64,000 nucleotides of DNA. It comes from Gluconobacter kanchanaburiensis NBRC 103587 (GTDB lineage: Bacteria; Pseudomonadota; Alphaproteobacteria; Acetobacterales; Acetobacteraceae). Shown one piece after another: positions 10,408 through 58,681 of the stretch (position 1 is the first letter of the stretch; the number at the start of each line of letters is the position of its first letter). The stretch is taken from contig NZ_BJVA01000003.1 in NCBI RefSeq assembly GCF_007988905.1, forward strand, positions 124,001 through 188,000, read 5' to 3'. The notes under the pieces are model-generated. The model had not been told where the DNA came from. It saw only the letters and a program-made list of their open reading frames with translations, and did no database searches. Position numbers and translations under genes: made by a program.

Positions 10408-11847
10408 GTGATCGACGATTTTCGCTTTGGCCGTATCACGGTGATCGGTGACCTGCTTCTGGATCAGTATATTTCCGGGGATGTCAGCAGAATTTCTCCT
10501 GAAGCGCCTGTGCCTGTGGTGCTGCATGATGGTCTTCGCTGTGTGCCTGGAGGCGCGGCCAACGTTGCCGTCAATGCGGCTGCGCTGGGTGCGGAGGTTC
10601 ATCTGGTTGGTCTCGTGGGACATGATGAATCGGCGCAACGTCTGGAAGAGACGCTGAAGCTTTGGCCGACGATCCGGATCGGTGGAATTGTTTCGGCCCC
10701 TGACTGGACCACCATTACCAAGACCCGTGTTGTCAGTGGGCGTCAGCAGATTGTGCGGATCGATGTTGAAAAGCTTACCCCTCTCTCCAGGTCCTTACAG
10801 CAACGCATCATCGATGCCGCTACTCGCGCCATCGCGGTGTCCGATGTGCTGGTGTGCTCCGATTACGCCAAAGGAGTCCTGACGGATGAGGTCCTGCGGG
10901 CTGTTATCGCGGCCGGTCGGGAACGAGGCATTCCCGTCATAGTCGACCCTAAACGACGTACTCTGGAAGCTTATGCGGGTGCTACGCTCGTAACACCCAA
11001 TCGCATCGAAGCCGAGCAGGCCAGCGGTCTTTCGGCCCGTACGGATGCTGAAGTCCTGAACGTCGCGGAAACCCTTTCAAAGCAGTTCGGGGGGGATGTG
11101 CTTGTGACACGCTCGGAAGACGGCATGACGCTTTGGCAGCGGGCTTCAAAACCGCTGCATGTCGCTAGCCGCAAGTCCGAGGTCTTCGACGTCTCCGGTG
11201 CGGGCGATACTGTGGTGGCAACGGTGGCGGCCGTGCTGTCAGCGGGGCAGCCACTGGAAACGGCCGTCGTCATCGCAACAGCCGCGGCCGCTCTCTCTGT
11301 CAGTAAATTTGGGACTGCCACGGTTTCGCGCGAGGAACTTTGCCGCGAACTCCTGCAGGAAATGCCCGAAACAGGTGCACTGGTTCCGGTGGAGCAGGCG
11401 GCTCGTATTGTGGAAAACTGGCACCGGCATGGCGCGAAAGTGGTTTTCACTAATGGCTGCTTTGATCTGGTGCATCCGGGGCATGTCAGCCTTCTCCAGG
11501 CGGCAGCCCGCGAAGGAGACCGTCTTGTCGTGGCGCTGAATACGGACAGATCAGTCAGCCGCCTCAAAGGACCCACGCGCCCCGTACAGAAGGAAGAGGC
11601 TCGGGCTCGCGTGATCGGAGCCCTGCGATCGGTAGATCTCGTTGTGCTGTTCGATGACGACACGCCGCTGGAGGTGATCCGGATGCTGAAGCCGGATATT
11701 CTCGTCAAAGGTGCCGATTACACGGAAGACCAGGTGGTTGGCGCCGATATGGTCAAAGCTTATGGCGGCAAAGTTGTTCTCGTGGATCTCGTTGAGGGAC
11801 AATCTACGACCCGGCTGGTTCGCGGGATGCAGTTACCCTCGTCCTGA
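10408..11847 (+). CDS. hldE: Bifunctional heptose 7-phosphate kinase / heptose 1-phosphate adenylyltransferase
   Basis: 479 residues with two fused domains. Residues about 1-315 are a PfkB/ribokinase-type kinase (GGAANVAVNAAALG near the start; catalytic DVSGAGDT near 260) that makes heptose 1,7-bisphosphate. Residues about 340-479 are a nucleotidyltransferase (FTNGCFDLVHPGHVSLL with the HxGH motif) that makes ADP-heptose. Both steps supply heptose for the LPS inner core. The GTG start at 10408 is preceded by AAGGAG at 10392-10397. No other heptose genes are adjacent. The 3' end overlaps the convergent AraC-type gene by 15 bp. Confidence 0.95.
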   Translation: MIDDFRFGRITVIGDLLLDQYISGDVSRISPEAPVPVVLHDGLRCVPGGAANVAVNAAALGAEVHLVGLVGHDESAQRLEETLKLWPTIRIGGIVSAPDWTTITKTRVVSGRQQIVRIDVEKLTPLSRSLQQRIIDAATRAIAVSDVLVCSDYAKGVLTDEVLRAVIAAGRERGIPVIVDPKRRTLEAYAGATLVTPNRIEAEQASGLSARTDAEVLNVAETLSKQFGGDVLVTRSEDGMTLWQRASKPLHVASRKSEVFDVSGAGDTVVATVAAVLSAGQPLETAVVIATAAAALSVSKFGTATVSREELCRELLQEMPETGALVPVEQAARIVENWHRHGAKVVFTNGCFDLVHPGHVSLLQAAAREGDRLVVALNTDRSVSRLKGPTRPVQKEEARARVIGALRSVDLVVLFDDDTPLEVIRMLKPDILVKGADYTEDQVVGADMVKAYGGKVVLVDLVEGQSTTRLVRGMQLPSS

Positions 11848-21945: not shown

Positions 21946-22028
21946 GTTGCAGGGAGAGAATGTGTCAAATCCGTCACGGACGGTTTTTTGTATTTGACTC
22001 GCCGGGTCCGGAGCGCTTCATGACATCT

Positions 22029-22208
22029 GACGGTGCCCGGAGGACGGGTGAAAAGGGAACGCAGTGCAAGGCTGCGGCTGCCCCCGCAACTGTAAGTGCC
22101 CGCTGCTCTGTCCGGACGGACGGACGGCGCGGTTTCGGGACATGAACCCACTGGTGTCTCAGCCGGGAAGGGCCTGAAGCCTCAGGACGAGCCAGGAGAC
22201 CTGCCGTC
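22029..22208 (+). promoter_or_regulatory. Cobalamin (adenosylcobalamin) riboswitch
   Basis: The leader contains the conserved blocks of the cobalamin element in order: GGTGCCCGGAGGACGGGTGA, AAAAGGGAACGCAGTGCAAG, GCTGCCCCCGCAACTGTAAG, then CCACTGGTGTCTCAGCCGGG and the B12 box GACGAGCCAGGAGACCTGCC. It sits about 120 bp before the btuB start and so should repress the uptake operon when cobalamin is plentiful. A -35-like TTGACT lies at 21994-21999; the matching -10 is weak. The 384 bp between the divergent sulfotransferase-like gene and btuB hold this element and no gene. Confidence 0.96.
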
Positions 22209-22329
22209 AGCATGAGTTGTCCGAAGGACGGTCCGGGCGGGGTGCATCGGAACGCCGGGTCAGGCCCTTTTGGCATGGGTCTGCCTCCTTCTTGAGGGCA
22301 ACGCTGAACGACGAGACATTGCCATCACC

Positions 22330-28020: not shown

Positions 28021-29031
28021 TCAGCAATGGGGCGGGAGGTAGGTCAGATAGGTCGCTTCCGAAAATAATCCCATTTCGGCGCGCCGCCGGTCCAGTGTCT
28101 TTGGATCTTCTCCGCCCGCATCAAGCGAATAGGGCGCATAGTGATGGTTTTGGCACGAGAGCTGGGAGCCATAATGCTGTTTGCCTGTTGTCGCCAGCAT
28201 GACCCGGTCTGTCAGAAGCGCAAAATCGGGTTTGTTGAATTCGCCTGCGCGCGCATATGGCGTAAGCTGACGCAGGGCTTTGGCCTGAAAAGCTGGGTCG
28301 TCATCCGCATGCTGCACCATAAGCCAGATCATTTTTGCGGTTCTTGGTCCCGTCTTTATGACTGCTGACCATCCCTTTGTTTCCAGCAAATGCCGCACCC
28401 AGTGACTGTTGTCCCAGTCTACATTCTCTATGCTCTGTTCAGTACGGTTCTTCAGCATCCTGAGCGTATCGGCATCAACTCCGGACAAATTGTCTAACGT
28501 TCCCATTCCAGGGGGCCCCCGCCAGGCCTGATCGGGAATAACGCGTGCTGTGGCCTCTTCTTCGAGTGTGTTCTCTTCTGCCCCGTGAATGGCATTGACT
28601 GAAGCCGTGATCCCGGCCTCGTAAGTCTGGAAATAGGGAATGCTGCGGGACAATGCTGTCCGGAATGCCTCCCAATTCGCAAAACCTTCCCGCGCAGAGG
28701 TGACGTCAAGGATCTGCGAACACAGCCGGTCCTGATAACCGCGATCTTTCGGGACGGATGCGATAATTCCGAGCTTTTTCAGCTCCGTGTCCTGCACGAG
28801 TGCCGCATCTTGCATGCAGGTCTTGCCGTAAGCTTCAATGGCCTTCCAGTCTGCCGCCTGCTGCGCTGTCGCGCCCGGAAAAGCACCACGGGCAAACCTG
28901 TAATCGCCGGGATTGAAACTGCCGTCATGAATAAAGGGCGCCAGAACGGCTGGTGGTGCAGGAGCCGCGGACGCTGTCGAAAACGCGCCCAGACCGGTCA
29001 GCAGAAAGATCATACGAAAACGGGCCATCAT
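28021..29031 (-). CDS. Secreted DUF6624-domain protein
   Basis: 336 residues with a signal peptide (MIFLLTGLGAFSTASA after two possible Met starts). The C-terminal half has the DUF6624 pattern: NVDWDNSHWVRHLLETKGWS, then MIWLMVQHADDDPAFQAKAL and LLTDRVMLATTGKQHYGSQL. The family has no established activity. The N-terminal half (residues 30-160) is not recognised; two cysteines there may form a disulphide. It is a single gene in an accessory stretch. Confidence 0.7.
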   Translation of the reverse strand: MMARFRMIFLLTGLGAFSTASAAPAPPAVLAPFIHDGSFNPGDYRFARGAFPGATAQQAADWKAIEAYGKTCMQDAALVQDTELKKLGIIASVPKDRGYQDRLCSQILDVTSAREGFANWEAFRTALSRSIPYFQTYEAGITASVNAIHGAEENTLEEEATARVIPDQAWRGPPGMGTLDNLSGVDADTLRMLKNRTEQSIENVDWDNSHWVRHLLETKGWSAVIKTGPRTAKMIWLMVQHADDDPAFQAKALRQLTPYARAGEFNKPDFALLTDRVMLATTGKQHYGSQLSCQNHHYAPYSLDAGGEDPKTLDRRRAEMGLFSEATYLTYLPPHC

Positions 29032-29103
29032 GACGACATCCTGTAAGGAAATATTTCGTCATGATGATCCGCATCAGAGGGTCAGATCAAGACCGTAACG
29101 GTC

Positions 29104-29733
29104 TCAGTCCCCTGTGATCTTGCTCTTGAGGTTATGAAGACTGGTCGAAACCTGCTTCTGCCATTCGTTCATGCGCTCGTGCCATTCATTGGAATGCTGC
29201 TGAACAAGAACGCGCTCGGCTTCTGCTGCCGCTGCGGCCTGTGCTTTCTGCTGGGCAAGAACTTCGCGTTCGACTGCCTCGATCGGGCGCCGCAGCACAA
29301 GGGAAGCGCCGAGAGAGGCCGCCACCTGGTCCACGACCTGCGGGACATATTCTTGTACTGTGGCGATGACCGCTGTCGTCCCTGCGGGAATAACGGATGC
29401 GATCTGCGCCAGAAGGCTGCTGCGGATTGCTGCGTCTTCGACCGACAGGCTCTCTCCCACCAGAGCGCCCATGGAGGCTCCGAGCAGGACGCCCAGCGGA
29501 CCCAGCAACAGCCCTACAACCGATCCCAGCAGGGTACCGTTCAGAACCTGCTCTCCGGAAGAATTCTGTGCCCAGTTGTCGTGAATGACGAGCGTACCGT
29601 CCGGATTGCGTTCGACAATGGCTTCGTTGACGACAACCAACTTCTGGTCTTCAGCCTGTTCGCGCAGTTCGGAAAAGGCCTGGAAAGCTTTGCTCTGCTC
29701 GGTGAAGGAGAGAACAAGAATATTGGTGTCCAT
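29104..29733 (-). CDS. DUF1269-type membrane-associated protein
   Basis: 209 residues. The start (MDTNILVLSFTEQSKAFQAFSEL) and the glycine-rich membrane hairpin (NGTLLGSVVGLLLGPLGVLLGASMGALVG, in two pieces of a helical pair near residues 67-95) match the DUF1269 family. A long Ala/Glu/Gln-rich coiled coil follows (residues 150-200). The function of the family is unknown; members are often stress-induced. It follows the small secreted protein gene with an inverted repeat between them. Confidence 0.6.
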   Translation of the reverse strand: MDTNILVLSFTEQSKAFQAFSELREQAEDQKLVVVNEAIVERNPDGTLVIHDNWAQNSSGEQVLNGTLLGSVVGLLLGPLGVLLGASMGALVGESLSVEDAAIRSSLLAQIASVIPAGTTAVIATVQEYVPQVVDQVAASLGASLVLRRPIEAVEREVLAQQKAQAAAAAEAERVLVQQHSNEWHERMNEWQKQVSTSLHNLKSKITGD

Positions 29734-29806
29734 GATCTGTCATGCTCCGCTCCCCCGCAAAGGATGGCTGGAAGAGGCGGGCATGCGGGGGCTGTCCACC
29801 CTGTGA

Positions 29807-29831
29807 CCGAGGCCTTTCTGGAAGGCCTCGG
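29807..29831 (-). terminator. Possible terminator hairpin between two accessory genes
   Basis: CCGAGGCCTT pairs perfectly with AAGGCCTCGG around a five-base loop. It lies 16 bp after the stop of the 153-aa gene (minus strand) but has no uridine tract on either strand, so it could be a Rho-assisted terminator, an RNA-stability hairpin or an operator. Confidence 0.5.
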
Positions 29832-29846
29832 CAGGAGGACACCAGA

Positions 29847-30308
29847 TTACCTGCTCAGCGTAAAGGTCAGACCCTGTGCCCCTGCAGCCAGGCGCGCGCC
29901 CTGGGTTGCGGTTTCAATCTTGATGCGCACGCCATTGCTGTTGGTCAGGACGGCTCCGCCCAGTCCCTTGTCCAGAGTTGCTTCTCCGGCGAGTGCGCCA
30001 TAGCTGCCGTCGAAATCATGCAGATGCTTGAGATTATAGACGGTGCCTTCGGCCTTGAGGGCCGAATATCCAACGGCTGCGATGTTCGCGCCTGTTACCT
30101 TGAAATGGTAAGTCTGATGCCCGTAGGTCAGGGTTCCGTCACCCCAGGTATAGCCGATGCCGACATCGGCCGACCGTGCAGAAAGCGTGACGTGTCCAAC
30201 TGGTGTTCCAAGAGTATCGGCGGCATGTACGGTGGGGGCGGCAGCCAGTCCCGTTCCGAACAGGAGTGCTGCGAGAGCGATACCACGGCGGTTGATACTG
30301 ATGGACAT
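29847..30308 (-). CDS. Small secreted protein, 153 aa
   Basis: A signal peptide (RRGIALAALLFGTGLAAAPTVHA) precedes about 120 residues of predicted beta structure: VGIGYTWGDGTLTYGHQTYH, then GTVYNLKHLHDFDGSYGA and LTNSNGVRIKI. The order of a YNL segment, a GxYGA segment and a terminal glycine-rich strand is reminiscent of EipA/DUF1134-type periplasmic proteins, but I cannot assign it with confidence. It may be periplasmic and envelope-related. Confidence 0.6.
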   Translation of the reverse strand: MSISINRRGIALAALLFGTGLAAAPTVHAADTLGTPVGHVTLSARSADVGIGYTWGDGTLTYGHQTYHFKVTGANIAAVGYSALKAEGTVYNLKHLHDFDGSYGALAGEATLDKGLGGAVLTNSNGVRIKIETATQGARLAAGAQGLTFTLSR

Positions 30309-30453: not shown

Positions 30454-31593
30454 TTATTTCGTCAGCTGATTGAGCGCTTCCAAGCGCTCAAAGGCGAGCT
30501 TCTGCGCCTCCTGCAGCAGGACACGGGGGTCATTGAGTGCCGATTCCAGTTCGTGACTGTGAGTGTCGGCTTCCTGAAGCTTGTCCAGCCGCTCGGCCTC
30601 CGGAGCCTCCTCCCCGGGAGCGCTCTTCGGGCTCTGGTCGGATGGAGCGTTGTCGGTTGTTGCCGCTGGACTGAGAAAGTCTTCATAGGCCCAGGGAAGT
30701 AGCGGTTCGATCTGGGAACGATAATTTTCGAAACTATGCGCTGGAAAAGAAAAATAATGCAGTGTGAGTCCGAGCAGCAGATCTGCGCAGTCGAGTGATG
30801 AAATTTCTTCATTGTATTCGATCCAGATCAGGGAGTCTCCGGTCGCCACAAATTCCCGATCATCCTTGAGGATGGCATATTCCATACCTTCGGCGTCGAT
30901 CTTGATGAGATCGAAGGGGCCGTTCTGCTTTCGCAGTTCAGTCAGGGGGAGTGTGGCTTTTACCGGAACATCATCTGGGACATTCGCCGTTGCTTCGTCA
31001 TAAACGAAGGATGTGGATCCGAGATTTTCCTCCTGACCATAATGGCCATGCACCTCGTAACCCGAAGGGGCGACAATCGCATTGATAACAGAGGTTGTCG
31101 GGCATTGGGCAGCGAGGGAGATGTTCGCATTCAGAAAAGGAATGAGCTCGGGATTACCTTCCACGGCACACAGGCTCGTTAGCCGGCGCAGGGAGGCGAC
31201 TCCCAGACCGAACGTTCCGATGAATGCCCCAATATCAAGAACCCTTGCGCCTTCTTTAAGAAGAGACGCACAGAACTTGACTTCGTTAAAAGCCCATTCA
31301 CCACAATAATCAAGAAAACGTCCGATTAGATCATGCTTTAGGCTCAGGCCCCATTGATTTGATTGTAGAAATCGGATTCATGCCCTGCATTCCGGGGCGA
31401 AGATCCCGCGGAAAACCAGTCAAATACGACAAATGAAAATATAAACGCCGCAATCGCATCGAGATCATGTTCGGAAGGCTCAAGGACTGGCGGAGGGTAG
31501 CAATCCGCTACGACAGATGCCCCACCGTCATCTTCTGCCTATGAGTCCTGAGCTTAGGAGTAATCCAACGTCTTTGATTGTTCTGCTATTCAT
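30454..31593 (-). pseudogene. FkbM-family methyltransferase gene, interrupted by a mini-IS
   Basis: The 3' 890 bp encode an FkbM-type SAM methyltransferase: motif I GARVLDIGAFIGTFG, then AVEGNPELIPFL, and FDLIKIDAEGMEYAIL, followed by an acidic, coiled-coil tail. The frame has no ATG, GTG or TTG upstream of motif I; the first usable start (GTG 31164) lies downstream of it and would remove SAM binding. Taking out the 212-bp element at 31342-31553 with one copy of its TTAG flank restores one open frame with ATG at 31593: MNSRTIKDVGLLLKHDLIGR leading straight into the methyltransferase. With the element present, translation from that ATG stops 21 codons in. Hence a recent insertional pseudogene. 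Confidence 0.85.
31342..31553 (+). mobile_element. 212-bp internally deleted IS5-family element (MITE-like)
   Basis: Ends are GCTCAGG (31342-31348) and CCTGAGC (31547-31553), a perfect 7-bp terminal inverted repeat that continues imperfectly inward, flanked by a 4-bp direct repeat TTAG at 31338-31341 and 31554-31557. A YTAR target duplication is typical of IS5-type elements. Inside, the plus strand encodes the C-terminal end of an IS5-type transposase (CIPGRRSRGKPVKYDK, then a TGA at 31434, then KYKRRNRIEIMFGRLKDW and RYDRCPTVIFCL, stop at 31542). The catalytic E-containing region is partly kept, but the rest of the gene is missing, so movement would need a transposase in trans. Confidence 0.85.
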
Positions 31594-31733
31594 GCAGACC
31601 ATAGATCATTTCAGCGCATGGCAGACAAAAAGACCAGAAGCACACGGCGAAACCGTGTTCTGTTGCGAAAAGCGCAGATCGCGCCAGAGATGCCGACGCG
31701 TTTTTAATTATTTTCGTGATTTATGGTTAATAA

Positions 31734-31809
31734 TGGTGCCCAAGGGCGGAATCGAACCACCGACACTGCGATTTTCAGTCGCATGCTCTACCAACTGAGC
31801 TACTTGGGC
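31734..31809 (-). tRNA. tRNA-Phe (GAA)
   Basis: A 76-nt cloverleaf with encoded CCA. The acceptor stem is GCCCAAG/CTTGGGC, the D arm GCTCAGTTGGTAGAGC, the anticodon stem-loop GCGACTGAAAATCGC with GAA in the loop, and the T arm GGTGGTTCGATTCCGCC. It lies 60 bp before yacG's stop, downstream of the yacG gene on the same strand, and next to the accessory block. Confidence 0.97.
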
Positions 31810-58346: not shown

Positions 58347-58465
58347 GTTGCGTCTTCTGGTCCCGTTACGATCGGGACGTCCGCAAGGCGCACGCTGCCC
58401 TCAGCCGGAGCGAAAAACAGGCGGGACTGCAAGTGCCCAACCTGTCCGCGACCGGACAAGTGCTG

Positions 58466-58613
58466 CGTTCTCTTCCATCCGGACTATGACCGTCGGCTCC
58501 GGAGTCTCACCGGATCTGCTTGTCCCTTCCGGACCGAAATCCGGAAGGCGCTCGCGGGCTGAGGCGGGGAAAACCGCCAATACCGCCGGTGGGGAATTTC
58601 ACCCCGCCCTGAG
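58466..58613 (-). promoter_or_regulatory. FMN riboswitch
   Basis: The minus-strand leader of ribD has all the conserved elements: TCAGGGCGGGGTGAAATTCC, CCACCGGCGGTATT, GAGCGCC, GATTTCGGTC, GATCCGGTGAGACTCCGGAG, CCGACGGTCATAGTCCGGAT and GGAAGAGAACG. It should repress the rib operon when FMN is abundant. About 120 bp lie between it and ribD, enough for an expression platform. Confidence 0.96.
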
Positions 58614-58681
58614 AACGTCTGTGTTCAGGAGGAACTATGGAACCGTCCGGACGGGAATGACAAGCAAAAATCCACTTTCGT

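Follow-up and report, generated by a model that had tools for sequence, protein, structure and literature searches.

The locus described here raises the question of how an fkbM gene of Gluconobacter kanchanaburiensis NBRC 103587 came to lose its beginning. In the 64,000-nucleotide stretch that we analysed (the window, in whose coordinates positions are given), an fkbM reading frame is cut off at its 5' side by a short insertion sequence (IS)-like element. A sequence-only reading of this DNA had proposed that a mini-IS recently inserted into an otherwise complete fkbM gene starting at ATG 31593, producing a TTAG target duplication, and that the ancestral frame could still be recovered. The fkbM remnant lies on the minus strand (30454..31341, with the stop codon at 30454-30456), in a frame which is open for 295 codons and runs through the SAM motif DIGAFIGTFG. 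Its product matches the PF05050 (FkbM) profile with an E-value of 1.4e-6 and 29 bits, against a Pfam cut-off of 22.7. Scanning this frame for ATG, GTG or TTG ahead of the SAM motif found none, as the sequence-only reading had noted; the first such codon past the last in-frame stop is GTG 31164, downstream of the motif. Recalculation also reproduced its other observations on the break: an IS-like element of 212 bp (31342-31553) sits there, translation from ATG 31593 reaches a stop after 21 codons when the element is present, and removal of the element together with one TTAG (216 bp) opens the frame.

Intact fkbM genes are present in three of the 25 other genomes of the genus, namely those of Gluconobacter roseus NBRC 3990 (G013), Gluconobacter sp. 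Dm-62 (G016) and Gluconobacter cerevisiae LMG 27748 (G005). The three orthologues start with MTRTxFSxxxDTxTRYGKLKxPD and share approximately 100 bp of upstream DNA. Similarity of the window to them begins at codon 24, the remnant protein being 88% identical to the G. cerevisiae orthologue across residues 23-248 of the latter, and both the first 23 codons and the conserved upstream DNA are missing. The remnant is also shorter than the intact orthologues in its C-terminal, coiled-coil-like part. With 23 codons and the upstream DNA gone and no start before the SAM motif, this is not a complete, expressible FkbM gene, and the startless remnant is not expected to yield an enzyme.

The right flank of the element (31557..31733, 177 bp), which contains ATG 31593, is unrelated to the 5' end of fkbM. 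When compared with the 5' regions of the three orthologues it scored 16, 16 and 18. Out of 300 shuffles (averages 15.5-16.0), 160, 153 and 49 did at least as well, whereas the three orthologue 5' regions score 242-285 among themselves. Furthermore, a frame that is open into the junction is easily obtained by chance, as it was found with an ATG in 35% and with ATG, GTG or TTG in 58% of shuffled flanks (2000 shuffles each). Alignment to the FkbM proteins of other Gluconobacter, which had been suggested as a check, contradicts the reconstructed start, since the match begins only at codon 24. The N-terminus MNSRTIKDVGLL is rejected as ancestral, because the orthologue 5' ends differ from it and because open frames are common among shuffles; the two flanks do not jointly form an uninterrupted gene homologous to fkbM. 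A search with positions 31557-31733 in the 26 genomes of the genus returned the genome of origin and no match in the 25 others, while among 299 genomes of the family (own genome included, with two candidates scored per genome) the matches shown contained a single other one, weak and 49 bp long.

The element itself (31341..31554, plus strand; 214 bp when its terminal bases are counted) is a decayed IS copy. It ends in GCTCAGG...CCTGAGC, which are IS ends, and codes for a C-terminal transposase fragment interrupted by an in-frame TGA. Judged by its features, we assign it to the IS5 family as an IS427-like element. The parent IS is about 829 bp long: the 11 two-ended copies found in relatives measure 820-832 bp, long copies carry the inverted ends GGCTCAGG...CCTGAGCC, and both of the relatives' copies that were translated (829-830 bp) contain two overlapping transposase frames. 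A relative's copy matches PF13340, PF01609 and PF13586, as a DDE transposase of the IS4/IS5 type does, while the window relic matches PF13586 with an E-value of 8e-4 and 20.2 bits, under the cut-off of 29.2. With IS427-group elements as described in PMC3281130, among them IS1248 with its 832 bp, the relatives' copies agree in length, two overlapping frames, a 2-bp TA duplication and DDE transposase domains; in contrast, the 214-bp window relic has neither the length of approximately 830 bp nor the two frames, and lacks a working transposase. Compared with the long copies, the relic has lost most of the interior and, close to the right end, a further 33 bp. The 33-bp gap recurs in another copy of this genome, which lies on contig C2 and is about 90% identical over the right part. 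Besides the relic, the genome holds five two-ended copies of 526-822 bp. We also considered a mobile mini-IS or MITE family, which was rejected: a 220-bp query against the window's own genome found no other whole-length copy (27 matches; 40 of 45 candidates scored), and none of the 25 other genomes of the genus matched the whole element (E-values up to 1e-40, with no more than 30 candidate places scored in any one genome). Within this scope, close relatives carrying the same 212 bp, which would have spoken against the sequence-only reading, did not turn up. The element therefore looks like a decayed IS and not like a mobile mini-IS.

The identical TTAG on both sides of the element had been taken as an intact 4-bp target duplication. 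TA is present at its left edge, on the fkbM side (31339..31340), and at its right edge (31555..31556). In 16 other copies the two ends could both be recognised. TA is found at the left edge of 14 and at the right edge of 15 of them, and the flanking base next inside is usually an end base of the IS itself, with G on the left in 15 copies and C on the right in 14. Identical flanking 4-mers occur in none of the 16, one right edge consisting of only three bases before a contig end. The target of the parent IS is YTAR, of which TA is duplicated; for comparison, of 11 IS427-group elements in PMC3281130, 10 have 2-bp repeats and one has repeats of 4 bp. At the right end of the window's element a T takes the place of the inner C, similarly to copies L009 and L010 of the same genome, and both sides consequently read TTAG. 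Agreement of the window with the empty site of the orthologues stops after TAG. The duplication thus amounts to no more than TA, as every insertion of this IS should produce, and because TA plus IS end bases account for both copies of TTAG, these are no proof that the two flanks were once joined.

In G. roseus NBRC 3990 and in strain Dm-62, fkbM stands between the same left neighbours as in the window and tRNA-Phe, being followed by a six-gene cluster, and codon 24 of fkbM is separated from tRNA-Phe by 9.7 kb in both genomes. The window shares the left neighbours with these two loci, including the EipA-like gene (29847..30308, minus strand; with 23.9 bits it stays under the Pfam cut-off of 30.8), which adjoins fkbM in both relatives as well, and conserved synteny resumes at tRNA-Phe (GAA; 31734..31809, minus strand), whose 3' end borders DNA that is variable in the genus. 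It differs from them in having no fkbM start, upstream DNA or neighbouring cluster genes, besides the shorter C-terminal part of fkbM. One gene of the cluster encodes Glycos_transf_2 and one Glycos_transf_1 domains; the other four gave no match in a Pfam search at 1e-3, and that these are related to glycans is only our reading. Relocation of the cluster within the same genome was rejected, as the 9.7 kb of G. roseus had only two short, weak matches there (48 and 64 bp) and neither of the two cluster proteins searched had a close one, the 713-aa and 822-aa proteins finding distant matches of 24-45% and 27-36% identity.

The absence of these 9.7 kb bears directly on whether a single recent insertion of a mini-IS split a gene starting at ATG 31593. 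Such an event would account for the frame that opens upon removal of the element and one TTAG, and for the equal 4-mers on either side. Nevertheless, we regard it as very improbable: the flank lacks homology to the 5' end of fkbM, more than a third to over half of the shuffles would give the open frame, the 4-mer follows from TA, the IS terminal bases and the target preference, and it is precisely on that side that 9.7 kb are missing. The sequence-only reading is therefore supported only in part. It was correct in seeing an IS-derived element at the break of a dead gene that has lost its start; however, the element marks the edge of a deletion, and the interpretation as a clean insertion largely fails.

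The cluster has a patchy distribution in the genus. Genome G002 carries several of its genes at tRNA-Phe and has no fkbM, whereas G005 and G009 carry some of them on other contigs, and the fkbM gene of G009 is decayed. The latter (L111, G009 C24, 95-452) has an internal deletion and lies beside cluster genes, apparently representing an independent loss. In a midpoint-rooted tree of one gene, which covered 21 of the 26 genomes (five were dropped, the matching gene being partial or not found) and was read regardless of support values, the window pairs with G020, a genome in which fkbM is absent and the 822-aa gene has no close match.

Several other features of the window were recorded in the course of these comparisons. 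Positions 29022-30308 are only about 78-82% identical to G020, while the DNA up to 27946 and from 31720 is 93-94% identical, suggesting that this segment was replaced by recombination in one of the two genomes. A DUF6624 gene is found at 28021-29031, where G. roseus NBRC 3990 and Dm-62 carry a gene resembling a GH32-type sugar hydrolase (named by eye); G001, G011, G012, G017 and G018 match both the DUF6624 and the hydrolase-like genes. Cobalamin and FMN riboswitches, at 22015-22222 and 58463-58620, score above the gathering score.

It is quite likely, in our judgement, that an IS-associated deletion removed the cluster and the start of fkbM, leaving behind an IS copy that later became shorter. 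The ancestor would have had fkbM and the six-gene cluster between the EipA-like gene and tRNA-Phe, an arrangement still seen in NBRC 3990 and Dm-62, and an IS5-family (IS427-like) element would have inserted at a YTAR site in codon 24 of fkbM. This IS would then have taken part in a deletion of approximately 9.7 kb. It may have recombined with a second copy that lay near tRNA-Phe, or it may have made an adjacent deletion while transposing intramolecularly into a TA in that region. The deletion would have taken away codons 1-23 of fkbM together with the DNA upstream of the gene and the cluster, one IS copy remaining with TA on either side, and internal deletions would subsequently have worn this copy down to 214 bp. 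Both routes predict the order fkbM from codon 24, TA, IS, TA and distant DNA, which is the order found in the window; the two are indistinguishable here. The sequences themselves show that the fkbM 5' end and the cluster are missing, what kind of IS is present, that it is truncated and that its flanks are of the TA type. We infer a single IS-driven event behind the loss, and likewise its precedence over the decay of the IS, the exact size of the deletion and its extent towards tRNA-Phe.

Related events have been described in the literature. Adjacent deletions beside IS elements have been described in laboratory evolution (PMC11708052), and IS1248, of the IS427 group, forms cointegrates, suggesting replicative transposition (PMC3281130). 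Similarly to the deletions by adjacent events or IS-IS recombination treated in PMC11708052, the window has an IS copy where the two sides of a large deletion meet, with flanks that come from different places. It differs from them in that the event is deduced from sequence comparison and has an unmapped right end, and in the TA on both sides, as predicted for a TA-targeting IS. The unmapped right end follows from an observation against an IS-associated deletion: when the right flank was compared with the DNA next to the tRNA gene in seven relatives, no score stood out clearly from those of shuffles, 26 to 226 of 300 of which reached it (uncorrected for seven tries), so that other DNA may have replaced this side. 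Among the loci of relatives that were examined, none showed an IS copy near tRNA-Phe. Moreover, G020, the sister in the one-gene tree, has neither fkbM nor the cluster and so does not reveal what the locus looked like immediately before the event, and the patchy presence of the cluster makes independent gain and loss possible.

A different origin of the right flank is conceivable if two unrelated steps took place, that is, if the IS inserted into fkbM and turnover at the 3' end of tRNA-Phe, for example through integration and loss of a phage-type element, later replaced the DNA up to the IS edge. In G001 the end of tRNA-Phe is repeated (16 bp) 9.2 kb away and an integrase-like gene lies beside the tRNA gene, so tRNA-Phe looks like an integration site in that genome and the DNA there may turn over independently; that the flank is found in no other genome among the 26 of the genus would also agree with such turnover. 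However, we consider the two-step history unlikely, as the boundary of the unrelated DNA coincides exactly with the IS edge, where TA and a purine stand. Such a coincidence is predicted if the IS drove the event, but not if the steps were unrelated. The G001 locus (L081, G001 C106:33000-49000; 2415-2456 and 11629-11644) has phage-like as well as integrase-like genes beside the tRNA-Phe 3' end, both named by eye.

The junction could in principle also be an artefact in which the assembly joined the fkbM side to the tRNA-Phe side through an IS copy, given that the genome is in 46 contigs, some of which start or end in IS copies. This is highly improbable, as the element is short, no second copy of the whole element was found in this genome among the 40 of 45 candidates scored, and the 9.7 kb cluster cannot be traced elsewhere in an assembly with a completeness of 99.97%.

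Regarding the age of the loss by an IS-associated deletion, the description of the event as recent is only half borne out. The remnant is free of stops over 295 codons, while the IS copy has been shorn of about three quarters of its length, which suggests that it is not a fresh arrival, although the wear may predate its coming to this site. In a rough neutral simulation with one substitution model, the probability of finding no stop in 295 codons was 0.083 at 0.10 and 0.037 at 0.15 substitutions per site. The branch leading to the window is roughly 0.39 long, taken as half of the dS of 0.785 between G005 and the window. Since a stop-free frame becomes unlikely (P below 0.05) somewhere between 0.10 and 0.15, fkbM was probably inactivated late on its branch, in partial agreement with the earlier view. 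Replacement and silent changes specific to the window number 9:8, compared to 23:45 pooled for three other lineages, a ratio that is not significantly raised (Fisher p 0.17).

The locus illustrates how an open frame and equal 4-mers can mimic a clean insertion, the edge of a deletion being revealed only by relatives: with a TA-targeting IS whose end bases are conserved, equal 4-mers at the edges do not prove a single insertion. The cluster appears to have been gained, lost or rearranged more widely, with genes but no fkbM in G002, genes and a decayed fkbM in G009, and a stump without the cluster in the window. From this it could be argued that loss of FkbM at the tRNA-Phe locus is recurrent and selected, and that IS activity and integration at the tRNA site together act as a slow switch of surface glycans, a reading which we hold to be unlikely. 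What the window records is an ordinary gene loss at a variable tRNA-Phe locus, and this strain is missing a cluster with glycosyltransferase genes that stands beside tRNA-Phe in its relatives.
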